Shown here piece after piece: positions 28,214-48,404 of a stretch of 53,571 nucleotides of DNA. Each line of letters starts with the position of its first letter. Within the stretch, counting starts at the first letter, position 1. This DNA is from a virus. The notes beneath the pieces were generated by a model that was not told the origin of the DNA, searched no databases, and saw only the letters and a program-made list of their open reading frames with translations. A program made the translations under genes and the position numbers. The stretch lies in the IMG/VR virus record IMGVR_UViG_3300027396_000044, positions 1 through 53,571 of that record; one strand, written 5' to 3'.

Positions 28214-28223
28214 TGTGCAGTTT

Positions 28224-29204
28224 ATGACACAAGACTTTCAAAATATACCATTCCAAAATATCGTTCGATTTGGACAAAGACCAATGCTGGAAAGCCCTTT
28301 GTTCTCTGTGAGTTGGATCCTGGGTAGGTTCTGCAACTACAACTGTAGTTATTGCTGGCCTTATGCTAGGTCAGACAAACTAGACTATCAAGATCTAGAT
28401 GTATATAAAAGGACAGTAGATCAAATAAAAGAGCAGGCCAAACGAAACGGTTTTGATCAGTTTCATTGGAGTTTTAGCGGCGGTGAACCTACAGCCTACA
28501 AACATTTGAACGATCTTATTAAACACCTTGATGAAAAAGAAAGTTCCTATCAAAGTGTGCATATGACTACAAACCTAAGTCCAGGATCGAAATGGTGGAA
28601 CACATGGTGCAATAATACAGCCATGTTACAGCGCAGAAGTATCACGGCCAGCTATCACGAAGAGTTCGCTAAAGAACAAGAGTTTGGAGACAAGTGTCTG
28701 CAACTATTAAATGAGTATGTACACGTCACTATTAATCAGGTGATGGTTCCTGAGAGATTTTACGATCTCTACGAACGTTGCCAAAGATTCTATAAAAGGG
28801 GAATCAATGTTACACTCAAACCGCAGAGCGATCCTACTGCGAGTTTTGTTGTAGAAGGTTACACTGAAGAAATGATCAATCTTATGCAAACTGGTTTCCC
28901 TCAAGAATCTTTTGGAGAAGAACTGTATCAGATAGCTTTGTATGATCAAGAAGGTCGAGAATATCTTTTCGATCAGGCAGAAAGATTTAACAGCTACGGA
29001 TTTAATAACTTCAAAGGATGGACTTGTAATAGTGGATATCAAAGTGTTATAATAAGAAGTAATGAAGTTAAGAGGAGTTATAGTTGTCATGATGTTCCAT
29101 TGGGAACACTCACGGACGGATTTGAGTTATTTAAAAATCCACAGATATGTGTAACCCCTAGTTGTGTTAGTTCAGCAGACAGCAAGATACCAAAATACAA
29201 ATGA
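28224..29204 (+). CDS. Radical SAM protein with C-terminal SPASM-like cysteines
   Basis: A 326-residue protein with the radical-SAM motif C-x-x-x-C-x-x-C at Cys37/41/44 (RFCNYNCSYCWP) and the SAM-binding SGGEPT around residue 86. The C-terminal part has further cysteines (WTCNSGY, YSCHD, CVTPSC) spaced like an auxiliary Fe-S (SPASM/twitch) domain. Radical SAM enzymes cleave SAM to a 5'-deoxyadenosyl radical; SPASM members often modify peptides. It is a paralogue of the gene at 32747. The ATG at 28224 is preferred over a GTG three codons earlier. First gene of a coupled plus-strand run. Confidence 0.88.
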   Translation: MTQDFQNIPFQNIVRFGQRPMLESPLFSVSWILGRFCNYNCSYCWPYARSDKLDYQDLDVYKRTVDQIKEQAKRNGFDQFHWSFSGGEPTAYKHLNDLIKHLDEKESSYQSVHMTTNLSPGSKWWNTWCNNTAMLQRRSITASYHEEFAKEQEFGDKCLQLLNEYVHVTINQVMVPERFYDLYERCQRFYKRGINVTLKPQSDPTASFVVEGYTEEMINLMQTGFPQESFGEELYQIALYDQEGREYLFDQAERFNSYGFNNFKGWTCNSGYQSVIIRSNEVKRSYSCHDVPLGTLTDGFELFKNPQICVTPSCVSSADSKIPKYK

Positions 29205-29821
29205 AAATAGATCTAGAACATCTCCACTATTGGATGCAGGCCATCCGCGAAAGCAAAGATCATATGCGGACATTAGATGCCTTTTGGCGTGGACAACTAC
29301 GCAGCAAAGAGTGGCTAGTCGATACACTGGTGTATCACATCTATCCAGAACGTAACAAGGTATTGGACTTCCCGGTGTCGGTGGATGTACACGGTGGTTG
29401 GGTAGGTGTACTATCTAGTATGCTGTTTCAAAGTGCCATTCCTATCAAACATATCCGTAGCATCGACATAGATCCGGAATGCGAAGATGTGGCAAGAGTA
29501 ATGAACAAAGGTGAAGAAGTAGTTGGAAAGTTCAGTGCCATTACCGCAGATATGTGTGACATAGTCAGTGAAGCTGATATAGTCATTAACACCAGCTGTG
29601 AACATATTACACAATCACAATATGATTCTTGGTTAGAAGGGCTACGTGACGATAGCATAATAGTATTACAGAGCAATAACTATAGACTTCCTGAACATAT
29701 CAGGCACGCAGACAGCCTAGAACATTTTAAAGAACAATCACACATCGCCGTAGAATGGGCCGGCGAAATAGATTTGCCCTTGTATAAGCGTTTTATGATT
29801 ATAGGAAAGAAACATGTATGA
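29201..29821 (+). CDS. SAM-dependent methyltransferase-like protein
   Basis: A 206-residue Rossmann-like protein. VSVDVHGGWVGVLSSML looks like motif I (glycine loop), SIDIDPECEDVA like the acidic residue binding SAM ribose, TADMCDIVSEADIVINT like motifs III-IV. Overlaps the radical-SAM gene by ATGA and the next one by eight bases. Substrate unknown; it may act in the same pathway as the radical-SAM proteins. The class call rests on pattern, not on a specific family. Confidence 0.62.
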   Translation: MKIDLEHLHYWMQAIRESKDHMRTLDAFWRGQLRSKEWLVDTLVYHIYPERNKVLDFPVSVDVHGGWVGVLSSMLFQSAIPIKHIRSIDIDPECEDVARVMNKGEEVVGKFSAITADMCDIVSEADIVINTSCEHITQSQYDSWLEGLRDDSIIVLQSNNYRLPEHIRHADSLEHFKEQSHIAVEWAGEIDLPLYKRFMIIGKKHV

Positions 29822-30803
29822 TTATAAAGATATAAGAAACATACATCTTGAAGTAACATCAAAATGCCAAGCAAGATGCCCTATGTGTCCTAGAAGGCTT
29901 GCCGGCGGCCCGATGCAGCCCTTTGTTGAACTGGCCGAAATAGATCTCGACACATTTAAAAAATGGTTTCCTATAGATTTTATCAAGCAGTTAGGCCATC
30001 TAAACATGTGCGGCAATCTAGGTGATCCTATCATAGCTAAAGATACACTAGAGATTTTTAGATACCTTCGTGAAGTTAATCCCAATATTGGTTTACAGAT
30101 GCATACTAACGGCAGCGCAAGGTCTGAGAAATGGTGGCGTGAGCTTGCAGGCTTAGAAGTATTCGTGGTATTCGGCATTGACGGTCTAGCAGATACACAC
30201 TCTATATACAGAATAGATACTGACTGGGATAGGATCATAACCAATGCAAAGATCTTTATTGAGAATGGAGGTTCTGCAAGATGGGATATGATCGTTTTTT
30301 CTCATAACGAACATCAAGTAGATGCCTGTAAAGAGTTGAGTCAACAACTAGGGTTTAAAGATTTTACGGTAAAGCACACTAGTCGTTTCAAAGATGGCGA
30401 GTTTCCAGTGCTAGACGACCGAGGAAAAAAGATATACACTCTTTATCCTACATCAAAGAGTGAATCAATGATACCTAAGATAAAATCTTCTATAAAGGAA
30501 GAGCTACCCACTATAAGCTGCAAGGCTAAATCAGATAGTATGCTTTATATCAGCGCCACTGGAAACGTCACACCTTGCTGTTGGTTGGATCTAGAATGGG
30601 TTCCTCCGACTAGTTTTTCTAGGATAGACTACTTAGATAAGATAGATGTATTTCCTAATCTCAATGATCAAAGTCTGCAGGAAATATTCGACAGTGATTA
30701 TTTCAACAAAATAGAACGCACCTGGAATACATGTGGACTAAAAGAGTGTGGAAAGCAATGCGGCTCATTTGATAGACAAAAGGCACAGTACGTAAATGAA
30801 TAG
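29814..30803 (+). CDS. Radical SAM / SPASM-domain protein
   Basis: A 329-residue protein with Cys18/22/25 (KCQARCPMC) as the radical-SAM cluster and a C-terminal SPASM-like cysteine set (ISCKAKSDS, GNVTPCCW, CGLKECGKQC). The 'Y-I-S-A-T-G-N-V-T-P-C-C' segment is typical of SPASM proteins. This arrangement is the classic one (radical-SAM core first), unlike the next gene. Overlaps both neighbours, so it belongs to the same coupled operon. Substrate unknown; a peptide or glycan is possible. Confidence 0.88.
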   Translation: MYDYKDIRNIHLEVTSKCQARCPMCPRRLAGGPMQPFVELAEIDLDTFKKWFPIDFIKQLGHLNMCGNLGDPIIAKDTLEIFRYLREVNPNIGLQMHTNGSARSEKWWRELAGLEVFVVFGIDGLADTHSIYRIDTDWDRIITNAKIFIENGGSARWDMIVFSHNEHQVDACKELSQQLGFKDFTVKHTSRFKDGEFPVLDDRGKKIYTLYPTSKSESMIPKIKSSIKEELPTISCKAKSDSMLYISATGNVTPCCWLDLEWVPPTSFSRIDYLDKIDVFPNLNDQSLQEIFDSDYFNKIERTWNTCGLKECGKQCGSFDRQKAQYVNE

Positions 30804-32094
30804 TTCTACATTCTGTCCTTTACCATGGATACATCTAGCAACAAGACCCAACGGTGATGTGCGAGTATGCTGTACCGCCAACGCCAGTGGTGCAGGTCCT
30901 GATGACGTGAAAGATGCAGGTTTGGTTAAGAGAGATGGTAGGGTGATGAATCTGAGAGATAATACTATAGAAGAAGTATGGAACTCAGATTATATGAAAT
31001 CTATTAGACTTAAGATGCTGGATGGCGGCATTCCTAGTAGTTGTACAAAATGTTTCGAAGAAGAATCTAACGGTATTATTAGCAAACGTGTATGGGAAAC
31101 TATAGTTTGGAAGGATCGTATAGATATACAGTCAGTAGTCGATAAAACATCAACGGATGGAAGTCTTCCTGTTGACATTCCTTACTTTGATCTTAGGCTA
31201 GGAAATCTTTGCCAACTAAAATGTGTTATGTGTAGTCCACATGATAGCAGCAGTTGGATTAAAGATTGGAAACAACAGTATCCTAAGTACAAGACTTTTG
31301 AACTGAAACAAGATCAGGACTGGGATCGAAGCTTTGATTATACATGGTATCAGAAAGGTAGCTTCCTTGATACGATGAAATCACAAGCTCACAATATCAA
31401 GGAGCTCTATTTTGCAGGTGGCGAACCTTTACTAATCCCAGAACACTATAAAATATTAGAGTTTATGGTCGATTCGGGTAATGCTAAAAACTGTATCCTT
31501 AGATACAACAGCAACGGATTAGAGCTGCCTAGTAAGCTATTTGATCTATGGAAGCATTTTAAACAGGTAAAGTTTAATTTTAGTATTGATGCTTTAGGCG
31601 AACAAAATGATTATATACGTTATCCTAGCAAGTGGGCTGATGTAGAAAAGAATATAAGACTTTTAGATCAAACCGACGATAACATTGTTGTTAACATAGC
31701 CTGTGCAGTACAACTATTAAATGTTCTATATCTTCCAGATCTGGCTATGTGGAAAAAAGAATCTAACTTCCGTAAAATAAACCTAGCACCATTTGGCGGA
31801 GGACTCATAGGACTACATATGGTATACCTTCCAAGCTATCTTAATATAAAAGTTCTACCAATGGAAATTAAAGAGTTAGCTAAACAACGGATAGAAACAT
31901 TTTTAGATCATCACCAAAGTTTAGAGTTCTTGGTCGGACCTACTGGTCGCAAACGGTGGGAAGGAATAATTAGTTACATGATGTCTGAGGATTGGTCAGA
32001 TAAACTAACCTCTACAGTAGAATATTTAGAAGTCTGCGACAGTACTCGCGGTACAGATTTTAGAAAGATATTTCCGGAGTTGAGAAGTCTATAA
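30796..32094 (+). CDS. Radical SAM protein with N-terminal twitch/SPASM domain
   Basis: A 432-residue protein of the 'twitch domain-containing radical SAM' type. The auxiliary cysteines come first: FCPLPWIHL with Cys7, DVRVCC at Cys25/26 and Cys83/Cys86 (SSCTKCFEE). The radical-SAM motif follows at Cys139/143/146 (GNLCQLKCVMC), then AGGEPLL near residue 210. The chain ends FRKIFPELRSL. The same layout occurs in the genes at 36415 and 37521. It is followed by an AspH-like oxygenase gene starting in its stop codon (TAATG), a pair also seen at 37521/38716. Confidence 0.9.
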   Translation: MNSSTFCPLPWIHLATRPNGDVRVCCTANASGAGPDDVKDAGLVKRDGRVMNLRDNTIEEVWNSDYMKSIRLKMLDGGIPSSCTKCFEEESNGIISKRVWETIVWKDRIDIQSVVDKTSTDGSLPVDIPYFDLRLGNLCQLKCVMCSPHDSSSWIKDWKQQYPKYKTFELKQDQDWDRSFDYTWYQKGSFLDTMKSQAHNIKELYFAGGEPLLIPEHYKILEFMVDSGNAKNCILRYNSNGLELPSKLFDLWKHFKQVKFNFSIDALGEQNDYIRYPSKWADVEKNIRLLDQTDDNIVVNIACAVQLLNVLYLPDLAMWKKESNFRKINLAPFGGGLIGLHMVYLPSYLNIKVLPMEIKELAKQRIETFLDHHQSLEFLVGPTGRKRWEGIISYMMSEDWSDKLTSTVEYLEVCDSTRGTDFRKIFPELRSL

Positions 32095-32750
32095 TGACAC
32101 AAGAAGAACTAGAAAGAGCAGCACTTTGGTATAGTTTAGTCAATCTAGGTGCCGTGGTTAAAACTAAATGGCGCTTAGATCCCCACGGAGTTGAGCAACA
32201 GATATCAAAGTTCAAAGATAACTGGTGTCCTTATAATGCAAAAAAAGACACAGTAAACAATCGTTGGGGTTTGCCAGTAACAAGTCAAACAGGTGAAGTT
32301 ATGGATAACTTCCATCTTAATAGTTTTGGTTACATGCAAAGGTACCATGATTCTTCTCTAAAGGAATCTGACTTTACCACACCGACTGATGTTTATCATT
32401 CGGTCCCTGATATTAAAAATCTAGTTGATGTTTTTAGACCAGACATTGGAAGAGTGCATCTTTTACGTGTTGACAAGGGAGGTTTCTTTCCGCCGCACAG
32501 AGACTTCCACGGTGTTAGCCCAGAGTACTTTAGATTGATTGCTGTGTTTGGTAGATGCAGTCCAGAGAACTATGTACAGATGATAGACGGTCGACCTGTG
32601 TATCTAGAACCTGGTTGGTTATATTTTGTAAACTTCCAACTTGATCATAGCGTGTTTAGCTTTAGTGATAATCTGTATTCATTGATACTTACAGTCAAAC
32701 TCAATGAACGGACTCACGAGTTAATAATGAATAACACAATGTCAGAATGA
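32094..32750 (+). CDS. AspH-like Fe(II)/2-oxoglutarate oxygenase
   Basis: A 218-residue cupin-type (double-stranded beta helix) protein. The metal facial triad is visible: H135-x-D137 (FPPHRDFHG) and H185 (QLDHSV) after LEPGWLYFVNF. This is the aspartyl/asparaginyl beta-hydroxylase (AspH) pattern; members hydroxylate peptide side chains or small molecules using Fe(II), O2 and 2-oxoglutarate. It is coupled to the N-twitch radical-SAM gene upstream and to another radical-SAM gene downstream. Substrate unknown. Confidence 0.82.
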   Translation: MTQEELERAALWYSLVNLGAVVKTKWRLDPHGVEQQISKFKDNWCPYNAKKDTVNNRWGLPVTSQTGEVMDNFHLNSFGYMQRYHDSSLKESDFTTPTDVYHSVPDIKNLVDVFRPDIGRVHLLRVDKGGFFPPHRDFHGVSPEYFRLIAVFGRCSPENYVQMIDGRPVYLEPGWLYFVNFQLDHSVFSFSDNLYSLILTVKLNERTHELIMNNTMSE

Positions 32751-33661
32751 AACTGCTATATCAAAATCCCTCTAAAGAAGATTGGTTTCTTGTAGCATGG
32801 ACACTGTCGAATAAATGCAACTATAGATGCGATTATTGTCCTAGTTTTCTGCATGACGGTAGCACTGGTCATCCTAAATGGGAAACGGTAAAACATTTTA
32901 TAGAAAACTTCAAGGTAGACAAAAAAGATATCTGCTACCGTATCAGCGGAGGAGAACCTACCTATTGGAAGCACTTCATTGATATGGCCAGACTGATCAA
33001 ACAGCAAGGTCACTATTTTAGCTTTCTAAGCAATGGTAGCCAGTCAGTAGAATATTACAAAGAAATAAGCAGATACAGCGATGGGATTATGTTGAGTTTT
33101 CATGAAAAATATTCTGACCCAGATCATTTCATAAACATCGCCAATGCTGTAGAGTGTCCTGTTGTAGTTAATCTAATGCTAGTCAAGGATAAGTTTGACG
33201 AACTAATAAAGATAGCAGAACACCTATATAACAATACTTCTAGCCTGGCTGTGTGGCCAAAAGTTGTATTGGACAAAACATCAGTAGATTATGTTACTAA
33301 TGATGTCAGTGATTATGATCAGAATCAAAAAAACATAATCAAACAATGGCCTTATTTTAGAAAGATCAACGACGATAAAATCCATCGAGGAGAGCTAATG
33401 CTTGATGGTAACAAAATCACAGGTAATGATATAATAATCAAGGGATTGAACAATCACCAAGGCTGGCAATGTTGGGGAGGTCTTCATATGATCAGTATCG
33501 ACATGTGGGGAGACATTTATAGATCCGAATGCCGGCAAGGCGGCAAACTAGGAACCTTAGAGCAATATCAAATGCCTACAGAAGTGTTAACGTGCGGAGC
33601 TACTAGATGTAGCTGTCTTAGCGACATTTATCTTAGAAAAGAATCCAAAGACATAATATAA
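32747..33661 (+). CDS. Radical SAM protein, paralogue of the island's first gene
   Basis: A 304-residue protein with Cys24/28/31 (NKCNYRCDYCPSF), SGGEPTYWKHF and a C-terminal cysteine set (GWQCWGGLH, YRSECRQGG, CGATRCSC). The opening 'W-x-L-S-N-K-C-N-Y' and the ending match the 28224 product. Last plus-strand gene of the first run; its 3' end overlaps the end of the opposite-strand beta-propeller gene by 34 bases, with no visible terminator between. Confidence 0.87.
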   Translation: MKLLYQNPSKEDWFLVAWTLSNKCNYRCDYCPSFLHDGSTGHPKWETVKHFIENFKVDKKDICYRISGGEPTYWKHFIDMARLIKQQGHYFSFLSNGSQSVEYYKEISRYSDGIMLSFHEKYSDPDHFINIANAVECPVVVNLMLVKDKFDELIKIAEHLYNNTSSLAVWPKVVLDKTSVDYVTNDVSDYDQNQKNIIKQWPYFRKINDDKIHRGELMLDGNKITGNDIIIKGLNNHQGWQCWGGLHMISIDMWGDIYRSECRQGGKLGTLEQYQMPTEVLTCGATRCSCLSDIYLRKESKDII

Positions 33662-34758
33662 CTTTCTTTGTCTTTGAAACTGTAGGCCATAGTCTTGACG
33701 ATTCCCTCGTGTTTTATAGGCCTACCTAAAAGATAATCACTGCAATATTCTTTAGCTATTATTTCACCATCAGTATCTATCAACAATATAGGGCAGCTTG
33801 GAGTTCCGGTGGGAAGAAACATGGCCTTACCTTGATAGTTGATTCCTGATCTAAATCGATATTTTCCACCAAAGTTGATTCCTATATCAAAAGTTTTATA
33901 TTTCTTAGTTTCTACATCAAATATTAAACCTAGATTACTGTCATGTTGATGTTCGTCGCCGTATGGCAATGCGATTATAGAACTATCAACCAATACACCT
34001 GTATTAAACTTTTTTGCAAAGTCTGGTATATCTAGTTCGTGTAGCTTATAGGTTTCTGTAAATGTATCAAACTCGATGATCTCTGTAATGCCAGGTTCTT
34101 CTCCGTAGGGCAGACAAAAAAGGCTGTTACCGTAAACTATGATATCTGTGTATTTCCTAGTGACATTAGGGTTCTTGATCTTAATATCATATCTAGTTAT
34201 TTCATACCCATCAAATCTGACTAGATCACAATACCCAGGAGTATCACCTCTGGGCGCACTCCAATAGCTACCATTGCAATATACGGTGCCCATATGAAGC
34301 TTAGTATGATTCTTTTTATCAAAGTCTATGGTATGCACTTTATCATTCTCTATGTAGATTCCATAGCCAGTGTCTTCGTACCCTAAAGGAAAACTGAACG
34401 CGGTATTACCGTTAGTGGCCATTCCATAGAACTGCCCCTTGCCTGGTCTATCTATATTGTGATAAATCGCTTCTCCGTTTTTTATTTGGACGATGACGTT
34501 GAAGTCGTCCCATATCCCATAGGGAATGAACCACACGCTATCTCCGATGCTGGCCACAGCATTAAACTTACTAGTAGCCGAAGGCAATGTAAGATTTATG
34601 AATGATATATCATCATTATACATAAACATCGCTTTACTATAATCTTTGCATTTCTCAGTGGCAAACGGAGGGCTGACCAACACACCGTTATGATTATGTA
34701 GTAGAAGATGCTTGATAGGTTCTTCGTGATAAAAATCTTGAAAGGCCTTATATGACAT
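33628..34758 (-). CDS. Beta-propeller-like protein (376 aa)
   Basis: At least seven repeats of a blade motif with the form 'hydrophobic-x-x-P-x-G' occur, for example VWFIPYGIWDD, AFSFPLGYEDT, YWSAPRGDTPG, LFCLPYGEEPG and IIALPYGDEH. Each is followed by a short beta segment and a D/E-containing turn, as in Kelch/WD-like propellers. It is paralogous to its neighbour at 34748. No signal peptide or transmembrane span. Propellers serve as binding platforms or as enzymes; here it may present or bind the substrate of the tailoring enzymes, which is speculative. Confidence 0.75.
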   Translation of the reverse strand: MSYKAFQDFYHEEPIKHLLLHNHNGVLVSPPFATEKCKDYSKAMFMYNDDISFINLTLPSATSKFNAVASIGDSVWFIPYGIWDDFNVIVQIKNGEAIYHNIDRPGKGQFYGMATNGNTAFSFPLGYEDTGYGIYIENDKVHTIDFDKKNHTKLHMGTVYCNGSYWSAPRGDTPGYCDLVRFDGYEITRYDIKIKNPNVTRKYTDIIVYGNSLFCLPYGEEPGITEIIEFDTFTETYKLHELDIPDFAKKFNTGVLVDSSIIALPYGDEHQHDSNLGLIFDVETKKYKTFDIGINFGGKYRFRSGINYQGKAMFLPTGTPSCPILLIDTDGEIIAKEYCSDYLLGRPIKHEGIVKTMAYSFKDKESYIMSLDSFLR

Positions 34759-35971
34759 TTAGATCTATTTCCTTGATTACTTTTTCTTGTATCGTGTCAA
34801 ATACTAAAACTGTTTGAAACTCTTTGCTCTGCCCATAAGGGAAGGTGAATATTTTATCATCTAATATTACACTGGCATTAAATTTTTCTATAGTAGTCGT
34901 ATCGGTGAAATGATCACTGATATCTACAGTATAATGGCTGTCATCTTTAGTATCAATAACTAATACTTCTGCAAGGTCTCCGTTTCTTTTCCAACTATCT
35001 CTGGGTTCACAGACACATCCGCCTCTGGGGATGTAGTAGATCTTACCCTGGCTATTTTCCCAACCGGTAAAATATTTTTTGCTTTCTTTTCCTAGTCCTA
35101 ATGATATAGTTTTCCAAGTGTCGTCGTTGGAGTTTATAACTAACAGATCACTCCAGTCGTCCTCATGACCTGCAGGCGGGCAATAGATTTTTCCATTACG
35201 TGCTGTAGTATGGCTGTAATATTTTCTTGAAGTTTCTTTTAGCCCAGTTCTTTCATAATGCCAGTTAGTGTCGAATCTTAACATAATATCGAACTCTGGA
35301 TTTTCACTATACGGTGGAGCATAGAGTTTATTATTAGCTTTGGCTAATGTAGTAAACTTTTTATTTGTGTAAGACTGTTGATCATAATCCTGCCACAGGA
35401 AAGATAGATCATATAACTCATATTCCAATGTGTCACAGTCTAAACGCACAGCATACGGAAAATAGTTTTCCAACCATCTTTCACCCCGAGGCACAGCATA
35501 TATCTTTCCGTTGAGATATTGACTAGTGTGCCATTTCTTTTGATCGTTGGGATTACAGATTATGTTTTTGAATCGAAGATCACCGGTATCAACATCAAAG
35601 GAAACAGCAAAGTTGAAGTTGTTGTTTTCTCCATATGGCAACGCCAATACCTTTCCTTCGTGTAGATGAGAACATATATATTTTCCTTTAGAATCAAAGG
35701 GAAGTTCTACATAGGATACAGTATCGTGATCCGTGTCTACGATTAATATATTCCTTTCATTGTAAGGAAGAAAGACTATTTTGTTTTTATAGGCGACACC
35801 GAACTGCCATTTTTCAAAACTTCCATCTACTTTCAAAGGTATTTTTGTTACCTCGTAAGTGATAGGATTTACTTTGATCATATAGTCAATAACTTCGTTC
35901 AACCCGTAAGGAGGAACGTAGATCATTCCGTTATTACCTACGGTTGGAAAACTAAAAGCCTGCGGGGTCAT
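34748..35971 (-). CDS. Beta-propeller-like protein (407 aa), paralogue
   Basis: Eight clear repeats of 'G/N-K-hydrophobic-hydrophobic-x-x-P-x-G', for example GMIYVPPYGLNE, KIVFLPYNERN, KVLALPYGENN, KIYAVPRGERW, KLYAPPYSENP, KIYCPPAGHED, KIYYIPRGGCV and KIFTFPYGQSK. The regular spacing of about 45-55 residues fits a seven- or eight-bladed propeller. It overlaps the next gene by 11 bases and the kinase-like gene by 20. Cytoplasmic; function unknown. Confidence 0.77.
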   Translation of the reverse strand: MTPQAFSFPTVGNNGMIYVPPYGLNEVIDYMIKVNPITYEVTKIPLKVDGSFEKWQFGVAYKNKIVFLPYNERNILIVDTDHDTVSYVELPFDSKGKYICSHLHEGKVLALPYGENNNFNFAVSFDVDTGDLRFKNIICNPNDQKKWHTSQYLNGKIYAVPRGERWLENYFPYAVRLDCDTLEYELYDLSFLWQDYDQQSYTNKKFTTLAKANNKLYAPPYSENPEFDIMLRFDTNWHYERTGLKETSRKYYSHTTARNGKIYCPPAGHEDDWSDLLVINSNDDTWKTISLGLGKESKKYFTGWENSQGKIYYIPRGGCVCEPRDSWKRNGDLAEVLVIDTKDDSHYTVDISDHFTDTTTIEKFNASVILDDKIFTFPYGQSKEFQTVLVFDTIQEKVIKEIDLNVI

Positions 35972-37452: not shown

Positions 37453-37487
37453 GGAGTTTCTTTATTAAAATAGTAGCATATTATTCA

Positions 37488-37495
37488 GATAAATA
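37488..37495 (+). promoter_or_regulatory. T4-type late promoter (GATAAATA), divergent pair, right-hand
   Basis: GATAAATA on the plus strand, 26 bases before the GTG at 37521. It overlaps by two bases a late promoter on the opposite strand, so two operons start from one 14-base element. Confidence 0.65.
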
Positions 37496-37501
37496 TTTAG
37501 C
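37494..37501 (-). promoter_or_regulatory. T4-type late promoter (GCTAAATA), divergent pair, left-hand
   Basis: GCTAAATA on the minus strand, about 40 bases before the ATG at 37452. Overlaps the plus-strand element at 37488-37495. Confidence 0.65.
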
Positions 37502-37520
37502 TGATGGAGATTTGGATACT

Positions 37521-39429: not shown

Positions 39430-39430
39430 T

Positions 39431-40912: not shown

Positions 40913-40913
40913 G

Positions 40914-41645
40914 ATGAGCGACAGAATAATAAAAAACTATGACCCAACCAACCATGGGATAACTCATGATTTTCTCTATAACTCCAATGATTGGGATTTG
41001 ATAGAGTTAAACTATAATATCGATGCAGCTAGATTGCAGCAATGGTGGAATGAAATACTAAATGATCATTCGTATATGCTGTTTAACTTTAATGAAAACT
41101 ATCAATCTCTTGAGCTTGAAAAAAGCAAAGAGATGGTTGAGAAAGGATACTGCGGCTATTACTGCGGTCCTATAGATGGTGTAACCCTAGCTTGGCCCAA
41201 GGAACGATATGAGCCGTTGCCACCGCCGGTGCAGGCAAATCTTGACCTATACCCAGAAGTTAATCGAGATACATTTTTTGATGATGCAAAACTAATGCCT
41301 AGATTTAGATTTGGATATTTTAACGAGCTGATTAACATATTCGGTGAAGACAGTTTCAGACAGGCTATCGTGACTAGACATCATCCAGGTATGTATATCA
41401 GACAGCATAGAGATAGCAAAGTATTAAAGTTGCACATACCTATCGAGTCTGATGAAAACTCTTTTTTCCATTTTGGAGAAAATAAAGAAAGAGGCAAGTA
41501 TCATCTCAAGCCCGGAAAAGTCTATATATTAAACACAGGTGATTGGCACGGTACTACAAACGAATCCGAAAAGTTTAGATCACATATTATCACAAGAATA
41601 GCAGACTGGCATATATTAAAAGTCATAGGAATGGTCAATGACTAA
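40914..41645 (+). CDS. AspH-like oxygenase
   Basis: A 243-residue protein starting at ATG 40914 after AGGGG; a longer reading from 40851 runs into the preceding gene and is rejected. Metal ligands H165-x-D167 (RQHRDSKV) and H212 (GDWHGTTNE), with Arg222 for 2-oxoglutarate, follow the DSBH strands LKLHIPI and LKPGKVYILNT. It is a close paralogue of the 47685 protein: both share 'ERY-x-PLP', 'YPEV' and 'R-x-RFG-x-F-x-EL'. Coupled to the next oxygenase gene. Confidence 0.82.
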   Translation: MSDRIIKNYDPTNHGITHDFLYNSNDWDLIELNYNIDAARLQQWWNEILNDHSYMLFNFNENYQSLELEKSKEMVEKGYCGYYCGPIDGVTLAWPKERYEPLPPPVQANLDLYPEVNRDTFFDDAKLMPRFRFGYFNELINIFGEDSFRQAIVTRHHPGMYIRQHRDSKVLKLHIPIESDENSFFHFGENKERGKYHLKPGKVYILNTGDWHGTTNESEKFRSHIITRIADWHILKVIGMVND

Positions 41646-42294
41646 GATTATGAAAAGGTATATAGAGCAGTTTGATCCTATTGACCTAGGATTCACTGTG
41701 TTACCTTGGGTTAAAGTTGATGTGGATGCTATTAGAGAATGGTATACTGATCTAGAAAAAAACTTCTCTGATTGGAAGTTTGTTGTGGGCGAAAATCATC
41801 ATGTATGGGAAATCCCTATCAGCGATCCAACTGGTGAAACTGGTCATGTATTGCCCGATGATACTTTTTACTACACGCTATGTTGGAACAGCGACGAGCC
41901 CGGCCCTAAGCCATTTGAACAAGGCTGTGCAAAACCAGAGTATAGAGACGATGACAATGATCAACTTAATCCTAGAAAATGTTTCTATGGTTACGGACTA
42001 GAAGTAGTTAAGTCTTTACCACTGAGAAGTAAGAAGTGGCTGATATCGGCTCATACACCTGGAACTAAACTTATTACACATCAAGACGCTACTGATAAGA
42101 TACGAGTACACATTCCGATCTACACCAATGAACAGAGTTTATGGACCATCGGGGAAAAAGATTATCACTTAGAACCTGGGTGGGCATATTTGATTAATAC
42201 TACATTACCACATAGTCTCGAAAATAAAGGTAGCACACCAAGGATACATCTTTACGGTAAAGTATGGACTGATGATGTAAGGGCGTTGCTATGA
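41638..42294 (+). CDS. AspH-like oxygenase
   Basis: A 218-residue protein with H148-Q-D150 (ITHQDATDK) and H192 (LPHSLEN), Arg202 after GSTP, and strands RVHIPI and LEPGWAYLINT, the AspH pattern. The ATG overlaps the previous stop by eight bases and its own end overlaps the following short-chain-dehydrogenase-like gene by ATGA. Residues 60-115 contain an insert rich in Asp/Pro that is absent from the shorter paralogues. Confidence 0.82.
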   Translation: MTKIMKRYIEQFDPIDLGFTVLPWVKVDVDAIREWYTDLEKNFSDWKFVVGENHHVWEIPISDPTGETGHVLPDDTFYYTLCWNSDEPGPKPFEQGCAKPEYRDDDNDQLNPRKCFYGYGLEVVKSLPLRSKKWLISAHTPGTKLITHQDATDKIRVHIPIYTNEQSLWTIGEKDYHLEPGWAYLINTTLPHSLENKGSTPRIHLYGKVWTDDVRALL

Positions 42295-42890
42295 AAGTCG
42301 TTATAACAGGATCAAGGATTTCGTCAACGCCCGGACATGTTATTAATGGGTGGATGTATGACTACTTTAAAAAACATGAAGTCGTTCAGCTTAGTAGATC
42401 TACAGGATACGATTTTAATACCGACTACGACAAAGCATTAGAAATAGCTCGTAGTGCTGATGTATTTGTAAACAGCGCAGCAGTCAATGATTGCCAGATA
42501 AGATTTTTAAATGATCTATATGGAGTCGTTCCTAAGATTATTTCTATAGGTAGTATTGCAGGCGATTTTAAAGACGCCTTAGATGATTTTTATCCTAAGA
42601 TGAAATATCAACTAAAACAGGATAATAAGTTGCTACCCTTAAAGAATCTAGGGGTTCACTCGGATCTATTACATCTAACCTTAACAGAGGTAGAAAATAA
42701 AGAAGAAAATCTAAAAGGATTGACCTACGATCATTTTTCAAAGATATTAGATTTTTGGTTCGAAATACCAATGTTCACTAACATAGATCTGAAATATTTT
42801 ATCAATGAAGAATATCACAGTACTGATAAAAAAGAAAAAATACAACGTGTGTTAGAATATTATGCAAATAGTAAGATTGGCTCGAGATAA
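42291..42890 (+). CDS. Short-chain-dehydrogenase-like Rossmann protein
   Basis: A 199-residue protein. MKVVITGSRISSTPG at the start is a dinucleotide-binding-like loop, ADVFVNSAA an NAD-binding strand, ISIGSIAG the strand carrying the active-site Ser, and FYPKMKYQLK contains a Y-x-x-x-K. These match the extended/atypical SDR layout, although the glycine loop is unusual. It may oxidise or reduce an intermediate. Its last 29 bases overlap the phosphatase-like gene. Confidence 0.62.
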   Translation: MKVVITGSRISSTPGHVINGWMYDYFKKHEVVQLSRSTGYDFNTDYDKALEIARSADVFVNSAAVNDCQIRFLNDLYGVVPKIISIGSIAGDFKDALDDFYPKMKYQLKQDNKLLPLKNLGVHSDLLHLTLTEVENKEENLKGLTYDHFSKILDFWFEIPMFTNIDLKYFINEEYHSTDKKEKIQRVLEYYANSKIGSR

Positions 42891-43314
42891 GTTTAAGGCA
42901 TTGATGATATCTAAAGATATCAATGACAGCAATGTCGCCGATTCTAACGACTTTTATATATGTATCAACAGCACAGGCTGGATACACGGAGTACCGTACT
43001 TCAAAGAATCTCATAAGAATGTTATTAATCTATATTTTGACGATGTAGAAATATCAGGACCGAAAGAAATACAATGGTTCGGTGGTTCGACTAAAACCAT
43101 AGATGCTGTTGCAATGGACAAGAGTCAGGCTACAGAGTTATACGACTTTATTAAAGAGATTCCCGAATCATCGATAGTATATGTTTACTGTGCCAAAGGT
43201 AAATCAAGATCAGGAGCGGTAGAAGATTTCCTTGAAGGCCTTACGACACCTAGAGAAGGTTCTAATGCACATGTTTTTAATAGTCTTAAAAAGGTAAAAG
43301 ATGCTAGACTTTGA
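42862..43314 (+). CDS. Dual-specificity-phosphatase-like protein
   Basis: A 150-residue protein with the PTP signature C110-x5-R116 (VYCAKGKSRSGA), flanked by a beta-alpha layout (IVYVYC, then an alpha helix). Its opening IVRLARDKF is like the phage-type DSPs. Paralogous in function to the phosphatase at the right end of the window, where the loop is HCVAGVCRSGA. A kinase-like gene also lies in the island, so reversible phosphorylation is possible, but this is inference. The next gene starts 14 bases before its stop. Confidence 0.72.
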   Translation: MQIVRLARDKFKALMISKDINDSNVADSNDFYICINSTGWIHGVPYFKESHKNVINLYFDDVEISGPKEIQWFGGSTKTIDAVAMDKSQATELYDFIKEIPESSIVYVYCAKGKSRSGAVEDFLEGLTTPREGSNAHVFNSLKKVKDARL

Positions 43315-44476
43315 TATAAAAGAACTGCCTAACATCAAGTTTTCTTATAAAGCTCTTCTTGACTACTATAATGAAGTAGTCTCAGATTATCCACATTTGA
43401 TGTGGCGACCCAATGACGTCGACAGACTAAATCACAAAGTAGATAATATCTATAGTTGGGCTATACAGACAAATCTAAAAGATTCATCAATGCCCTGTCC
43501 TCCTTATGATATCAAACATGATGACGAAGTTATCGGCACGTTTGATAGTCCTACTGATCTTGTTTTTGGATTTGCAAAGATAGTCATTGATGCATTTCCG
43601 AAAATAAGACAGACGGTTATAAGCGCACACCCTCCGGGCACAATAATACAAGAACACATAGATAATGACCAGTTTTTAAAAATACATATACCTATTAAAT
43701 CTAACAAGAATAGTTTCTTTGTATTCGGAGATCAGAAATATAATCTAGAAGAAGGAAAAGCCTACCTAGTGAATACCACAAGGCCCCATGGAACTTCCAA
43801 TGATGGCGAAACTGATCGTATACATTTTATTTTTAAGTTTCCGATAGAGCTATCGGATGAAATCATTAATAGTGAATGGATATTAGATCCTTCTCAGATA
43901 GACTTTGATCTACTAGTATTAGATAATATAAAATTTAATCTAACAGACTTATCTGCCTATTATCAAGATATAAAGAATAACTTTGATTATCTAAAATGGA
44001 CTATGCCGGACGTTCAAGAAAAAATGTTGACAGGTGTATATGGCTATGGAATTTTAACAAATAAAGATAATGTTGATGAAGCAGTTGATCCCCCGGGTAC
44101 ACGCAGAGATAAGAAAAGATATGAACCTCTGATTAAACCGACTAAGATGCTAAAAGGATTTGCAAAAACTATATACGAAAAGATTAGCTATGCTGAAGAA
44201 ATAGTTATTACAGGACATCCTCCTTTTACGGGTATCCCACCGCATGTAGATAAGGATGAACATATTAGAGTACATCTTCCGATTGAGGCCAACGATAAAT
44301 CCTATTTTATTATTAACAATAATAGATATGTGCTGGAATCAAAAAAAGCATATCTTGTTAATACTAAACGACTACATACAACTATAAATGAAGGTAATAA
44401 TGATAGGATACATTTGCATTTTAAAATACCTATCGGAAAAATAAATCAGTTTTTAAAAACAGAGATAACTTTATGA
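43301..44476 (+). CDS. Tandem-domain AspH-like oxygenase (two copies fused)
   Basis: A 391-residue protein made of two AspH-like domains. Domain 1: H119-x-D121, H163 and R173. Domain 2: H315-x-D317, H359 and R369. Each pair of equivalent residues is exactly 196 apart, which points to an in-frame gene duplication. Both copies retain all ligand residues (QEHIDND/PPHVDKD, RPHGTSND/RLHTTINEG), so both could be active. AAGGT precedes the ATG. It is followed, in ATGA overlap, by the halogenase-like gene. Two-step hydroxylation or two-site binding is conceivable. Confidence 0.85.
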   Translation: MLDFDIKELPNIKFSYKALLDYYNEVVSDYPHLMWRPNDVDRLNHKVDNIYSWAIQTNLKDSSMPCPPYDIKHDDEVIGTFDSPTDLVFGFAKIVIDAFPKIRQTVISAHPPGTIIQEHIDNDQFLKIHIPIKSNKNSFFVFGDQKYNLEEGKAYLVNTTRPHGTSNDGETDRIHFIFKFPIELSDEIINSEWILDPSQIDFDLLVLDNIKFNLTDLSAYYQDIKNNFDYLKWTMPDVQEKMLTGVYGYGILTNKDNVDEAVDPPGTRRDKKRYEPLIKPTKMLKGFAKTIYEKISYAEEIVITGHPPFTGIPPHVDKDEHIRVHLPIEANDKSYFIINNNRYVLESKKAYLVNTKRLHTTINEGNNDRIHLHFKIPIGKINQFLKTEITL

Positions 44477-45648
44477 AAATATCTATAATAGGTGGCGGAT
44501 CTGCAGGATGGATGGTTGCGAGTTATATATCGGCCAAGACCTCTCATGAAGTTGTTTTAGTCGAAAGCCCTAATTTTCCTATTGTAGGCGTAGGAGAAAG
44601 TACTATTCCGAGCATAGTTGATTTCATGAATGATGTTGGTCTGACTGAACAAGATCTGATAGATGAGTGTGGAGCTATAAGAAAATATGGAATACAACAT
44701 AACGGGTGGAAAAACTATAATGACAGTTGGTGGCACATGTTTTGCTTTGATGAATCTGAGCACGATGAGCAGTTTAGCTGGATGGAAAATCTAACATTAC
44801 CAAAGAAAAAGTGGCGTCTTGCTTATCATTTAGATGCTACTAGGTTAGGAATATTGCTTAAAGAAAAAGTAGCTATTCCTAATGGTGTAAAACATATCTT
44901 AGATGATATCATTCATGTTGAAGTAAATGAGAATGGTATCAAAGAAGTCAAAGGAAAAAAACAAACATATACTTCAGATCTTTTTATCGATTGCACAGGT
45001 TTTAAAAGTTTACTAAACAAAGAGCTAGGTGGTAAAAGAAGTCAACACCCTGGGCTAATCAACAACTATGCTGTCGCAGGACCTGGCGTTTTTAAAGAAT
45101 CTTTAGTAAACTATAGTCAGACATATGCTATGGATTATGGTTGGAGATGGAGGGTTTGCCTACAGCATAGGACAGGAAACGGTTATGCTTTTAATAAAGA
45201 TATCATTAGCGTTGATCGTGCAGTAGATGAACTTATAAAGAAAACACCCGGTATAGATGTAGGTAAGATATTTGAAGTTCCTATCAATAATAGTGTTGAT
45301 TACGAACCATGGAAAAAGAACTGTGTCTCTATGGGATTAAGTTGCGGATTTTTAGAACCGCTCGAAGCCACCGGTTTATTTTTAATACATGCTCCGTTAA
45401 AGTTGCTTGTAAGGTTGTTATCAGATGATCAGAGACAGACTAAGTTTAATAGAGTATGGAGAAGAATGTATCATCACATAGCTGATTTTCTTAGTCTACA
45501 TTATAGAACTAGCCAGCTTGATCATACCGAATATTGGAGAAGTATTCCAAAAATAGATAAGATTATTTTGCCTCAGCCTAATCAAGTTTTATTCGAAAGA
45601 TACAACTATAGGCAGTTGGCAATATCTAGGAACATAGACTATCTATGA
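44473..45648 (+). CDS. Flavin-dependent tryptophan-halogenase-like protein
   Basis: A 391-residue FAD protein. GGGSAGWM (7-14) is the FAD loop; VGVGESTIP (38-46) is the halogenase start motif; Lys71 (AIRKYGIQHNGW) aligns with the catalytic Lys of PrnA-type enzymes; CGFLEPLEATG (291-301) is the conserved C-terminal Glu motif. The W-x-W-x-I-P signature is WRWRVC here (224-229). The chain is shorter than typical PrnA-type enzymes (about 500-540). The family makes chloro/bromo-aromatics with FADH2 and halide; a viral relative, VirX1 of cyanophage Syn10, was reported to iodinate diverse substrates. Last gene of the plus-strand run. Confidence 0.85.
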   Translation: MKISIIGGGSAGWMVASYISAKTSHEVVLVESPNFPIVGVGESTIPSIVDFMNDVGLTEQDLIDECGAIRKYGIQHNGWKNYNDSWWHMFCFDESEHDEQFSWMENLTLPKKKWRLAYHLDATRLGILLKEKVAIPNGVKHILDDIIHVEVNENGIKEVKGKKQTYTSDLFIDCTGFKSLLNKELGGKRSQHPGLINNYAVAGPGVFKESLVNYSQTYAMDYGWRWRVCLQHRTGNGYAFNKDIISVDRAVDELIKKTPGIDVGKIFEVPINNSVDYEPWKKNCVSMGLSCGFLEPLEATGLFLIHAPLKLLVRLLSDDQRQTKFNRVWRRMYHHIADFLSLHYRTSQLDHTEYWRSIPKIDKIILPQPNQVLFERYNYRQLAISRNIDYL

Positions 45649-46200
45649 TTCTCTCCATTGTTTATAGGTGTCTACATTTAATCTCCATAAAGTCTGTGTA
45701 GTATACATATAATAGAAGTTATCCTGTATCTTGGTGCATAGACCAATTTTCTGCATCTTGGGGGCCATTACCGTATCCATGCTATGGCTCTTAGCATTTG
45801 TAGAAGATTTTTCAGCATTAGTTGTAAAATAAAACTCTGCCGTTGGATTTTTTTCTAAGATGAAATCTACCTGCATGTTTAGTGATATCATTAGTTGTAA
45901 GCTACCTTTTATTCCTCCCCTGCCAGTATGATATCCTGGAAGGCCAACACCGCGATAGAATACTCTATATGCATTATTGTTAATATCAGGTATATGATGT
46001 ACTCCGCAGAGATTGATAATAATATTTTTATCTAAATCTAATCCTATAAAATATTGCCCGTGAGGCATCTTCATTTCTGATAGTTTGATAGCCTCGAACG
46101 ATTGATTATTATAATAACCTAGTTCTTTACATCTATTACAGAAATCAGAAAGAAGATTAAGTTCATCTTCTAAAGGTTTGAAAATAATTTTAGAATGCAT
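45643..46200 (-). CDS. GNAT-like acyltransferase candidate
   Basis: A 185-residue protein. The central part (GQYFIGLDLDKNIIINLCGVH, then YRVFYRGVGLPGYHTGR) and the C-terminal strands resemble the acetyl-CoA-binding fold of GNAT/N-acyltransferases, and its gene overlaps an adenylate-forming enzyme by 11 bases, making an acyl-transfer role plausible. No clear R/Q-x-x-G-x-G/A CoA loop was found, so the family call is tentative. Its last six bases overlap the halogenase stop on the other strand. Confidence 0.45.
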   Translation of the reverse strand: MHSKIIFKPLEDELNLLSDFCNRCKELGYYNNQSFEAIKLSEMKMPHGQYFIGLDLDKNIIINLCGVHHIPDINNNAYRVFYRGVGLPGYHTGRGGIKGSLQLMISLNMQVDFILEKNPTAEFYFTTNAEKSSTNAKSHSMDTVMAPKMQKIGLCTKIQDNFYYMYTTQTLWRLNVDTYKQWRES

Positions 46201-46864
46201 TTTTCCAAGTTTTGTTACTGGCTGATTTATTTCTTGCTACAAACTCTAATGTTTCGATATTAAAATAATCTCCTGTAGGATTATTGTTAATGTAACATTC
46301 TACTAAAGGTTCGACGCTGTCTATCACTGTTTCAAATGTAACCTTGTAATCCTCTGGAACTGTTGAAAGATCAAAAGATGTAGAGTTGTACCCGATCATC
46401 ACCGGAGGTGGTGCTTCAGTCATTCCATACCAGTTAGCTACGATCTGCACTCCTCTTTCTCGGAATGTATCGATAAACTCTTGTGTGATTTTACCGCTAC
46501 CGGCGACCATATATCTTACACAGTTCATATCTAAATCTTTAAATCCCTTGGTGGATTTTAAAAGTTCTAGATGTCTAGGAATAAGTGATATGTATGTAGG
46601 TTGCACTTCTTTAAAGAGTTCTATGTAACTATAGGGATTAAAGTTTGCGGATACCAAATGGGCACCACTGATAATAGAAGGATATGCTGTGACAGTATAG
46701 TGAGCTATAGTGTTTGCTGGAAACACATCTAGTACACGATCATTGGGAGTCAGTCCTATTTCTTGAGCAGACCTCAATGCACACTGTTTGATATATTCCC
46801 AACTATGAAAAACTTTTTTAGGCTCAGACGTACTACCAGACGTGAACAAAGTAATGCCACTCAT
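46190..46864 (-). CDS. Minimal ANL-superfamily (AMP-forming) adenylating enzyme
   Basis: A 224-residue protein with the phosphate loop TSGSTSEPKK (8-17), YGMTE (146-150) and TGDY (197-200), in the correct order for acyl-CoA synthetases and NRPS adenylation domains. It lacks about 100-150 N-terminal residues and the entire C-terminal domain with the catalytic Lys; family members are usually about 500 residues. Some naturally truncated ANL enzymes catalyse only half-reactions. Coupled to an SGNH hydrolase and to a GNAT-like gene, it could activate an acyl group for transfer. Confidence 0.75.
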   Translation of the reverse strand: MSGITLFTSGSTSEPKKVFHSWEYIKQCALRSAQEIGLTPNDRVLDVFPANTIAHYTVTAYPSIISGAHLVSANFNPYSYIELFKEVQPTYISLIPRHLELLKSTKGFKDLDMNCVRYMVAGSGKITQEFIDTFRERGVQIVANWYGMTEAPPPVMIGYNSTSFDLSTVPEDYKVTFETVIDSVEPLVECYINNNPTGDYFNIETLEFVARNKSASNKTWKNAF

Positions 46865-47688
46865 TATACAACCTCTAATATTTTTTCTGTAGTTATCCTA
46901 TGGACACCTATGCCTGGATGTGCGGATATACCGTCGTGGCGGTGTATGATATCTCTAGCATAACGCTGATCAATATTTGTTCGATCGATCAAGTCCATAT
47001 CTATAACTACGGTATTTTCTTTAGCAAACTCGTCATTATGATTATAAGATATTTCTATTAATTTACAACCTATGTTTTTACAATACTGTCGAAGGATATT
47101 CGAATATACTAATGCTTCAGATCTAAAGTAATCGGTCTCTTTAAGAATATCATATGCATCTATGTATTTTTGATAGTTTCTAGGATAATGACTTCCTCCT
47201 GTAAAGGTAAGGGCATGTTCCTTGTCTAAGAAAGTATAACCGGTAAGTATTGGATATTCAAAGACGCATATCTTAGGTATCTGATATTTCTGTATATAGT
47301 TGAAAAATGTATAGACCTGTAACTTGATACTGAAGGTAGGACCAGAATAGTTAATATAGTCTAAAGATAACTTATTGGCTAAAATGTCCGAATATCGATC
47401 TTCTTCGGCTAGACCTATGCCCATAGAAAAACTAGTACCCGAAACATATAATATATCTTTCTTTAGCTCATCAAGATCTTTAGACATCCTGAGACCCAAT
47501 TTATTAAATCTGTATTCTATATTTTTATTTCTATAAATCCAATCTAATGGCTGGTACTTTAGATTACGTTCAAAGAGGTTTAAGTTGTCCGGACCATAAA
47601 ACTTTTCTCGAACGGATGGTACCATACTATCGTGTAGATATGGCCAGCTTCCGTGTTTATATAGTTGTTCAGTGTTTAGCTTGGTCAT
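46864..47688 (-). CDS. SGNH/GDSL hydrolase-like protein
   Basis: A 274-residue protein. Near residues 82-92 VSGTSFSMGIG replaces the usual GDS-x-T-x-G block I, and at the C-terminus DGISAHPGIGVHR retains the D-x-x-H-like block V (HPG and H). INYSGPTFS could be block II/III. The substitution of Thr for Asp in block I is unusual. Family members are esterases, lipases or O-acetyl-esterases/transferases. It overlaps the ANL gene (TAATG) and its own ATG overlaps the AspH-like gene. Esterase or acyltransferase activity on the pathway product is possible. Confidence 0.65.
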   Translation of the reverse strand: MTKLNTEQLYKHGSWPYLHDSMVPSVREKFYGPDNLNLFERNLKYQPLDWIYRNKNIEYRFNKLGLRMSKDLDELKKDILYVSGTSFSMGIGLAEEDRYSDILANKLSLDYINYSGPTFSIKLQVYTFFNYIQKYQIPKICVFEYPILTGYTFLDKEHALTFTGGSHYPRNYQKYIDAYDILKETDYFRSEALVYSNILRQYCKNIGCKLIEISYNHNDEFAKENTVVIDMDLIDRTNIDQRYARDIIHRHDGISAHPGIGVHRITTEKILEVV

Positions 47689-48404
47689 TTTATCTTTATT
47701 AAAGATTCTAAATCTTCTCTATTAGGAGTTCCATAAAGTATAACCCAATCCGGGCCGCCGTGATTTATCACAGAGTGAAAAACTGCTGTGTTGGCTAGAT
47801 ATACCTTACCTGGTTCCATCACATACTGTCGCTCAGCACTATGTCCGAAATACCATACGCAGTTTTCGTGGATATTAAGATTCATATGCATACGAGGTAT
47901 AACATCCGGATATGGCATATCTACATGTAGATGTAGTCCAGCACCTTCTGGAATAACCTGTATTCTCATATTAAGAAGGTATCTATCTAGCCTTTTATAT
48001 AACTCTTCGAAAGCACCAAACCTGTAACGAGACAATATTGAGTTTGTCTGGTCGCTGTGATTAGAATCTAATACTTCTGGATATATCTGCCTATTAGCTA
48101 AAAAGCTAAATGGTAAGGGATCATACCTTTCTATAGACCAGTTTAGAAACCACCAATGCGATGGTCTATTTTTGTAGAAAGCAGAGTTGGCCGCTTTCCA
48201 TCTACGTAGCATAGATTGTTCTAGATATTTTTCATCTTCTTCATCTACATTGAACTTTGAGCTCTGCATAGTTTCTTTAATGGTTTCGTACCATTGCATG
48301 AGACTGATGTGATCTACCGTGAATCCAAGTTCTATTAGATCCCATTCTGTGTTACAAAGTTTATCGTAGTCTAGATTTTTTAAATCAGTGATATATCGTT
48401 CCAT
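47685..48404 (-). CDS. AspH-like oxygenase
   Basis: A 239-residue protein with H160-x-D162 (HLHVDMPY) and H210 (AVFHSVINHGG), strands LNIHENCVWYFG and MEPGKVYLANT. Paralogue of the 40914 product. It is the first gene of the minus-strand run of four that ends at 45643, and it is preceded by AGAGGT and a weak TTAAATA. It would act with the acyl-activation genes downstream. Substrate unknown. Confidence 0.82.
   Translation of the reverse strand: MERYITDLKNLDYDKLCNTEWDLIELGFTVDHISLMQWYETIKETMQSSKFNVDEEDEKYLEQSMLRRWKAANSAFYKNRPSHWWFLNWSIERYDPLPFSFLANRQIYPEVLDSNHSDQTNSILSRYRFGAFEELYKRLDRYLLNMRIQVIPEGAGLHLHVDMPYPDVIPRMHMNLNIHENCVWYFGHSAERQYVMEPGKVYLANTAVFHSVINHGGPDWVILYGTPNREDLESLIKIK

Follow-up and report, generated by a model that had tools for sequence, protein, structure and literature searches.

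A conserved island of predicted tailoring enzymes in uncultivated T4-like phages

About twenty enzymes, which fill some 10% of a 200-kb genome and are kept in order by widespread aquatic phages unseen among the cultivated ones, raise the question of what a virus makes with such equipment. This question was approached on a virus record of IMG/VR (IMGVR_UViG_3300027396_000044; 53,571 bases, the whole of which is called here the window), which comes from a T4-like phage and carries at positions 28215–48404 an island of 23 overlapping genes. Encoded there are six radical S-adenosylmethionine (radical-SAM) proteins, seven AspH-type domains in six proteins, a compact flavin halogenase, a truncated adenylate-forming enzyme of the ANL class, two β-propellers and a glycosyltransferase-like protein named GT493, together with GNAT-, kinase-, phosphatase-, SGNH-, SDR- and methyltransferase-like genes. 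The enzyme block is real and conserved. Its role may be proposed with less certainty: at a probability that we put somewhat below even, the island encodes a dedicated pathway of several tailoring steps in large aquatic phages of T4-like type that have not been cultivated, with a virion protein (fibre or propeller) as the likeliest target.

An enzyme island kept in order

All 23 open reading frames (ORFs) are present, with limits exact or a few bases off those of the original prediction, which was made from the letters of this DNA alone; the first one was opened there at the in-frame ATG 28224, but begins at GTG 28215. Tightly coupled gene runs were described as well, and 99.995% of 28215–48404 is indeed coding, most genes overlapping their neighbours by 1–82 bases. 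The enzyme classes listed there stood, but the core glycosyltransferase-like protein at 39431–40912 had been missed. GC content of the island is 37.0%, that of the flanks 42.9% and 43.5%. An assembly artefact was ruled out because other IMG/VR contigs carry the same genes: the island is present again in contig 3300024513_000816, 100% identical except for the gene truncated at the contig end (99.4%), and the gene at 34748–35971 (PropB) was found at 100% identity in two other contigs. A DNA search against isolate phages gave no match for the window.

Relatives were collected from IMG/VR with a GT493 profile, which registered 96 related stretches; the best 80 of these 96 were examined as loci and, at a GT493 identity of 97%, collapsed into 51 lineages. 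With the same profile neither 50,697 isolate phages nor 84,980 prokaryote genomes yielded a relative, the second negative being the ground on which a bacterial origin was rejected. Protein searches against isolate phages with GT493, PropB and Asp1 had no match, and nothing was found there for the tandem AspH protein Asp4 at E 1e-5. The first relative (G003) contains in the same order two propellers, a kinase, a twitch radical-SAM protein, three AspH proteins, a phosphatase, a halogenase, GNAT and ANL, the shared proteins being 29–63% identical to those of the window. Over the 51 loci the recurring order is PropA-PropB-KIN-TwiB, Asp1-GT493-Asp2/3-PTP-Asp4-HAL and GNAT-ANL-SGNH-Asp5-fibre, where PropA and PropB are the propellers, KIN is kinase-like, TwiB is a twitch-domain radical-SAM protein, Asp1 to Asp5 are AspH-type oxygenases, PTP is phosphatase-like and HAL is the halogenase. 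Neighbour pairs were kept almost without exception (KIN-TwiB 48/48, PropA-PropB 38/38, HAL-GNAT 25/25, Asp1-GT493 49/51, GNAT-ANL 32/33). The core, composed of the kinase-like, twitch radical-SAM, AspH and glycosyltransferase genes, is co-linear in the 51 loci with 51–78% identity, and KIN, TwiB and Asp1 occur in all 35 loci that were spanned on both sides.

Five other genes behave as an accessory block: of these 35 fully spanned loci 28 have the complete set of PropA, PropB, Asp3, Asp4 and ANL, and 7 have none of them. On the GT493 tree PropA, Asp3, Asp4 and ANL require two changes each and the halogenase six; thus the block is gained or lost as a whole, which happened only twice, and this count of changes is the one correction for relatedness applied to the co-occurrence. 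The halogenase is gained and lost on its own, and in several lineages it is replaced by extra AspH genes. The search for the same co-occurrence in phage genomes, which had been suggested as a check, showed that relatives hold these genes together in order and not scattered among unrelated neighbours. Decay of active sites in homologues was looked for too, and their residues turned out almost invariant over about 50 lineages, the motifs of kinase, phosphatase and ANL being near-invariant. These observations support the conclusion that the genes belong to a single system, conserved and co-linear. Module-bearing contigs L126, L124 and L137 reach 356, 260 and 268 kb, so that some carriers are jumbo phages.

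Core, accessory block and halogenase

KIN (35952–36434, minus strand) is a minimal kinase-like protein with the motif HxDxxxxN..DWD in 55/55 relatives and weak protein-kinase profile matches. Next to it TwiB (36415–37452, minus strand) carries the twitch domain (NF033640, 231 bits) and its radical-SAM cysteines are kept in 55/55 relatives. Asp1 (38716–39429, plus strand) belongs to the AspH-type oxygenases by PF05118 (E 2.5e-12), and its HxD..H ligands are found in 61/61 relatives. The adjoining gene for GT493 (39431–40912, plus strand) encodes what appears to be a GT-A-like domain fused to a C-terminal Rossmann/methyltransferase-like one. According to its AlphaFold2 model (pLDDT, a per-residue confidence score, of 73) residues 15–269 match GT-A glycosyltransferases (Z 9–10, 143–191 residues aligned), and residues 268–476 match 6ulo, an uncharacterised protein of Leptospira (Z 9.5); the methyltransferase AviRa is among the Foldseek matches. 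The fold resembles the capsid glycosyltransferase of PBCV-1 (Z 9.4–9.6), the collagen-type R699 of mimivirus (Z 9.3–9.7), LH3 and COLGALT1, identity of the N-terminal domain with the two viral proteins being 5–8%. A sequence-profile search with this domain gave no match, its likeness to GT-A enzymes being one of fold only. Use of a sugar nucleotide by it is putative, and the C-terminal domain may be Rossmann-like.

In the accessory block PropA (33628–34758, minus strand) is a 23% identical paralogue of PropB and is present only with Asp3, Asp4 and ANL. PropB (34748–35971, minus strand) was modelled with AlphaFold2 at pLDDT 90; its 8-bladed fold matches in Foldseek are BamB and cd1 nitrite reductase at a TM score of about 0.6, and yield no enzyme assignment. 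Two propellers had been announced originally, and this pair answers the description. In nine lineages a third propeller-like protein (~414 amino acids; L010:8036-9271) separates Asp2 from the halogenase. The only relative of PropB found in prokaryote genomes, a distant one of 352 amino acids on Flavobacterium limnosediminis contig L211, lies within a run of small genes and adjoins a muramidase-like one, probably in a phage-like element, without other module genes. Asp3 (41638–42294, plus strand; PF05118, E 7.5e-12) keeps HxD..H in 49/49 relatives, and Asp4 (43301–44476, plus strand) has two stretches of PF05118 (E 3e-22). ANL (46190–46864, minus strand) matches PF00501 with E 4e-22 over model positions 168–364 of 384 only, in agreement with the "minimal" enzyme first described. 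Its 224 amino acids lack both ends, including the C-terminal domain with motifs A8–A10, and 16 relatives are of similar length; the A3 P-loop T-S-G-S-T..PK, YGMTE of A5 and D of A7 are conserved in 38–41 of 41 members. The label GNAT given to its neighbour (45643–46200, minus strand) is backed by a PDB profile match to 3t9y, but this support is weak (E 3e-4).

HAL (44473–45648, plus strand) is a predicted member of the flavin-dependent halogenase family, as its flavoenzyme character had suggested: it matches PF04820 with E 1e-85, and the GxGxxG motif for flavin adenine dinucleotide, the catalytic Lys and the catalytic Glu are each kept in 32/32 members. In the WxWxIP motif both Trp residues are maintained (32/32 and 30/32), and Pro is found in 7/32 members. 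The best PDB profile match is VirX1, a cyanophage flavin halogenase (6qgm, E 2e-63). Compared with its 531 amino acids HAL has 391 and is without the C-terminal part; identity to cyanophage relatives is ~30%. In PrnA-like halogenases the C-terminal part covers free tryptophan, so HAL without this part would suit a bulky substrate.

What the island may make

When the 7-mers preceding genes were counted without bias, ATAAATA, the core of T4 late promoters, proved to be the top enriched one upstream (89 of 174 copies, background 2.8%, p 3e-89). Inside the module, away from gene starts, it is about fivefold rarer than permuted 7-mers, and ATAAATA or ATAAGTA was detected near Asp1 in 28/49 loci versus ~5 per permuted 7-mer. 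Putative T4-type late promoters precede the run from TwiC and Asp1 to HAL (37489–37495, plus strand), Asp2 (40887–40893, plus strand) and the fibre gene at the right of the island (49888–49894, minus strand). The late-type promoters claimed at the outset are supported, and the island is probably expressed late in infection, when virions are assembled.

Conservation, gene order, active sites, gain and loss of the block, late-promoter motifs and the site are what the data show; from them we infer the following timing, reaction order, chemistry, substrate and purpose. KIN, TwiB with further radical-SAM proteins, Asp1 and GT493 would form a fixed core making the first modifications: Asp1 would hydroxylate a residue, GT493 would add a sugar to the hydroxylated residue and the radical-SAM enzymes would make carbon-centred changes. 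The accessory block, in which ANL may act with GNAT, would hydroxylate again and attach an acyl or aminoacyl group, the propellers serving as substrate or scaffold, and HAL, Asp2, Asp5 and the SGNH, phosphatase and SDR genes would vary the end product. The substrate itself may be the neighbouring Mtd-like fibre (48478–49854, minus strand; PF18454, E 6e-9), another tail fibre or the propellers, and the outcome a chemically varied receptor-binding surface. A virion protein is favoured because the site is hypervariable, as fibres are, and the propellers are strictly tied to half of the enzymes, and also because GT493 resembles capsid and collagen glycosyltransferases and no transporter, precursor or carrier was recognised. 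Pfam scans of the island proteins gave no recognised transporter, carrier protein or resistance gene, and a precursor-peptide gene is absent, as noted from the start: at the coding density given above there is no conserved family of small ORFs (at least 50 amino acids) inside the module in relatives. Halogenases and oxygenases border structural or fibre genes in the cyanophages P-RSM6 and S-RIM44, too. The fuller statement, that a phage-encoded assembly line employs radical-SAM and AspH enzymes to hydroxylate, halogenate and glycosylate the phage's own tail fibres or propellers after translation, swapping genes to vary the surface chemically and not by sequence, is offered only tentatively.

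Several points weigh against a virion target. The fibre and the propellers are candidate substrates, the chemistry of Asp1 and GT493 is proposed by analogy to collagen, and the GT-A likeness of GT493 is a fold match only (pLDDT 73; best Foldseek E 0.004). Gain and loss of the accessory block are two tree events, so its strict co-occurrence does not amount to many independent observations. Adjacency to fibres and late expression are no proof either, since hypervariable regions of cyanophages also hold host-surface genes, and the ANL-GNAT pair and an aminotransferase-like gene of G003 suit small-molecule synthesis equally. The main rival takes up this last point: the island would make a diffusible metabolite derived from a peptide or amino acid, released at lysis and acting on competitors, grazers or the next host, with ANL and GNAT activating and coupling a building block that radical-SAM, AspH and halogenase enzymes decorate. 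The enzyme classes, the adjacency of ANL and GNAT in 32/33 loci and the swapping of halogenase and oxygenases, as in natural-product clusters, speak for it, and a similar cyanophage cluster was read in this way (PMC7824862). However, a precursor peptide is missing, carrier proteins, transporters and resistance genes were not recognised by Pfam scans, ANL is devoid of its C-terminal domain, and the strict tie to phage propellers and the adjacency to fibres also speak against a metabolite; this rival we consider, on balance, unlikely.

Modification of lipopolysaccharide or capsule sugars of the host late in infection, blocking superinfection or freeing progeny, would account for the GT-A-like GT493 and the SGNH- and kinase-like genes; lipopolysaccharide genes are known in the hypervariable host-recognition cluster of such phages (PMC7029224), and one module-bearing relative, G006, has a second cluster with a NodU-type carbamoyltransferase. 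Yet Pfam showed no genes for nucleotide-sugar synthesis or polymer export in the island, and its promoters are of late type. Where twitch/SPASM radical-SAM proteins abound, the targets are typically peptides and proteins, and a host-surface role is considered quite improbable. That independent auxiliary genes were merely gathered in a hypervariable region, without a common pathway, could be suspected from other gene sets at this site in G002 and G017 and from the six tree changes of the halogenase. Nevertheless, gene order is conserved and the block co-occurs strictly in 51 lineages, in which the core genes are 51–78% identical; a chance gathering was therefore rejected and keeps a very low probability. 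Least probable of all is a nucleic acid or cofactor as the target, for instance a hypermodified base or tRNA: QueD and ThyX are encoded left of the island and QueC-like genes occur in some relatives, but QueD and ThyX are outside the module, and halogenase, AspH enzymes, propellers and late-type promoters are unsuited to DNA hypermodification.

Relation to known systems

The original prediction regarded the combined pathway as undescribed, and indeed no description of this gene set was found in the literature searched, but the general idea is not new (PMC7824862, PMC7029224, PMC5332604). Iyer and colleagues predicted in jumbo cyanophage S-SSM6a a ten-gene cluster of halogenase, 2-oxoglutarate (2OG) oxygenases and carbamoyltransferases with unknown product (PMC7824862). 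Like the island, it is a phage-borne tailoring set in which a flavin halogenase is combined with several Fe/2OG oxygenases. The core carbamoyltransferases of S-SSM6a are, however, absent here (0 Carbam_trans matches among the 23 island proteins), and the core of that cluster includes a HemK-like methylase (PMC7824862). In P-RSM6 and S-RIM44 two halogenases stand beside structural genes, with several oxygenases after them that are of the 2OG-FeII_Oxy or JmjC_2 type and not AspH. Of the families of the module only the halogenase occurs there; radical-SAM, propeller, ANL and GT493 genes set the island apart from the cyanophage halogenase clusters. In P-RSM6 Gly-rich proteins precede the halogenases, and in S-RIM44 a giant structural gene stands there.

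Radical-SAM genes have also been noted as cassettes in the host-recognition cluster of pelagimyophages (PMC7029224), and 12 of them in one marine genome of T4-like type (PMC5332604). These cases share with the island the T4-like type, a hypervariable region with tail fibres and several radical-SAM genes. In the passages found, the reports present the latter without a conserved module and do not mention a set of AspH, halogenase, propeller and ANL. Flavin halogenases are also known to act on ribosomally synthesized and post-translationally modified peptides (PMC10858898). Clusters for such peptides with radical-SAM/SPASM enzymes employ similar enzyme types, but the island has neither precursor gene nor transporter. 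Chlorovirus PBCV-1 encodes the glycosylation of its capsid and mimivirus has collagen-type glycosyltransferases; both are viruses of eukaryotes, and decoration of a virion protein by a viral gene set is the logic proposed here. To our knowledge, no radical-SAM protein or halogenase has been reported in their glycosylation systems. As far as searched (literature other than subscription papers and preprints), the kind of system is known from prediction, and the gene set, its conservation, block structure and promoters are new. With the virion as target, phages would have chemical variation of their adhesins in addition to that of sequence; with a metabolite as product, halogenated compounds would enter the water from lysing phages. 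In both cases the island offers new enzyme families, among them the compact halogenase, the truncated ANL, the twitch radical-SAM proteins and the glycosyltransferase fusion, for which the strong co-occurrence is a guide to assays.

Other genes of the island

PF04055 scores above its cut-off in all six radical-SAM proteins originally counted (starts 28215, 29814, 30796, 32747, 36415 on the minus strand and 37371). On the plus strand these are rSAM1 (28215–29204; CxxxCxxC, E 6e-13), which is conserved and 81% identical even in the replaced island of G017, rSAM2 (29814–30803), which is a radical-SAM/SPASM protein by PF04055 and PF13186, TwiA (30796–32094), rSAM3 (32747–33661; E 1e-11), whose cysteines are kept in 48/48 relatives, and TwiC (37371–38723). 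NF033640 is exceeded in TwiA (427 bits) and TwiC (351 bits) as well as in TwiB (cut-off 170), and CxxxCxxC and the N-terminal twitch cysteines are conserved across relatives of the twitch proteins. The late promoter at 37489 falls inside the called 5' end of TwiC, so that its true start is probably near GTG 37521.

The seven AspH-like domains in six proteins, as first reported, include five above the Pfam cut-off for PF05118 (proteins at 38716, 40851, 41638 and, with two domains, 43301), one just below it and one recognised by motif and a weak profile. In Asp1 to Asp4 the HxD...H iron ligands and a distal Arg are conserved across relatives. Asp2 (40851–41645, plus strand; E 5e-7) has HxD..H..R in 60/60 members and probably starts at ATG 40914, because the late promoter at 40887 lies inside its called 5' end. 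Asp5 (47685–48404, minus strand) reaches 21.4 bits at a cut-off of 22.6 and keeps HxD..H in 11/11. OxyZ (32094–32750, plus strand), a predicted oxygenase of the AspH superfamily, gave no match in the Pfam scan; its motif (HRD...H) is retained as HxD..H in 33/33 members, and there is a weak profile match to L-proline cis-4-hydroxylase.

The names kinase, phosphatase, SGNH, SDR and methyltransferase proposed from the sequence have conserved motifs (HGDxxxxN..DWD, CX5R and similar) behind them, but no notable profile match. PTP (42862–43314, plus strand) is like dual-specificity phosphatases (CX5R with C and R in 27/27; phrog_5614 E 3e-10; weak PF00782); a second phosphatase-like copy (phrog_5614) lies outside the island at 53012–53569 on the minus strand and is 59–69% identical in relatives. 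The SDR/NAD-epimerase-like protein (42291–42890, plus strand) was recognised by eye from GSR.S..G...Y and had no Pfam match. The SGNH-hydrolase-like protein (46864–47688, minus strand), with conserved G-x-S and a late His, and the methyltransferase-like one (29201–29821, plus strand), a conserved family with class I motifs seen by eye, had neither Pfam nor PDB profile matches.

The genomic site

The left part of the window contains baseplate- and tail-fibre-like genes followed by QueD-, Bax1- and ThyX-like ones; right of the island stands the Mtd-N fibre and then a conserved phosphoesterase. A fibre of this type is located near the module in 63/102 loci examined. Judged by the gp23-type capsid gene in 7/16 related contigs (gp23 itself is outside the window) and by the ATAAATA motif, the carrier is a T4-like phage. 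A cyanophage was considered and rejected: psbA is absent from 16 related contigs, which as fragments could miss it, and the capsid protein of G006 is nearest to Vibrio phage 2.275.O and PA5oct-like phages. In T4-like phages the hypervariable host-recognition cluster with tail fibres is placed between VrlC and gp14 (PMC7029224). The site of the island is hypervariable and flanked by fibre- and baseplate-like genes; VrlC and gp14 were not located in the fragment. Flanks of G017 match the window at 68–93% (phosphoesterase 93%, ThyX 78%), and its island is mostly replaced by another enzyme set including several more radical-SAM proteins, two of them with weak matches to B12-binding domains.

The same site in L204 and L205 (contig of L116) is occupied by a tailoring set that is largely different; the contig has 15 radical-SAM matches, two of which have weak B12-binding matches and one an HMPTM zinc ribbon. 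The second cluster of G006 (G006:C1:12000-22000, L206) combines several twitch-type radical-SAM genes with the NodU-type carbamoyltransferase, in addition to the module present in this phage. On the left the island is bordered by a divergent tRNA-like sequence (28050–28160, minus strand), which ARAGORN does not find and which scores 24.3 bits with the Rfam tRNA model (gathering score 29); it may mark an insertion site.

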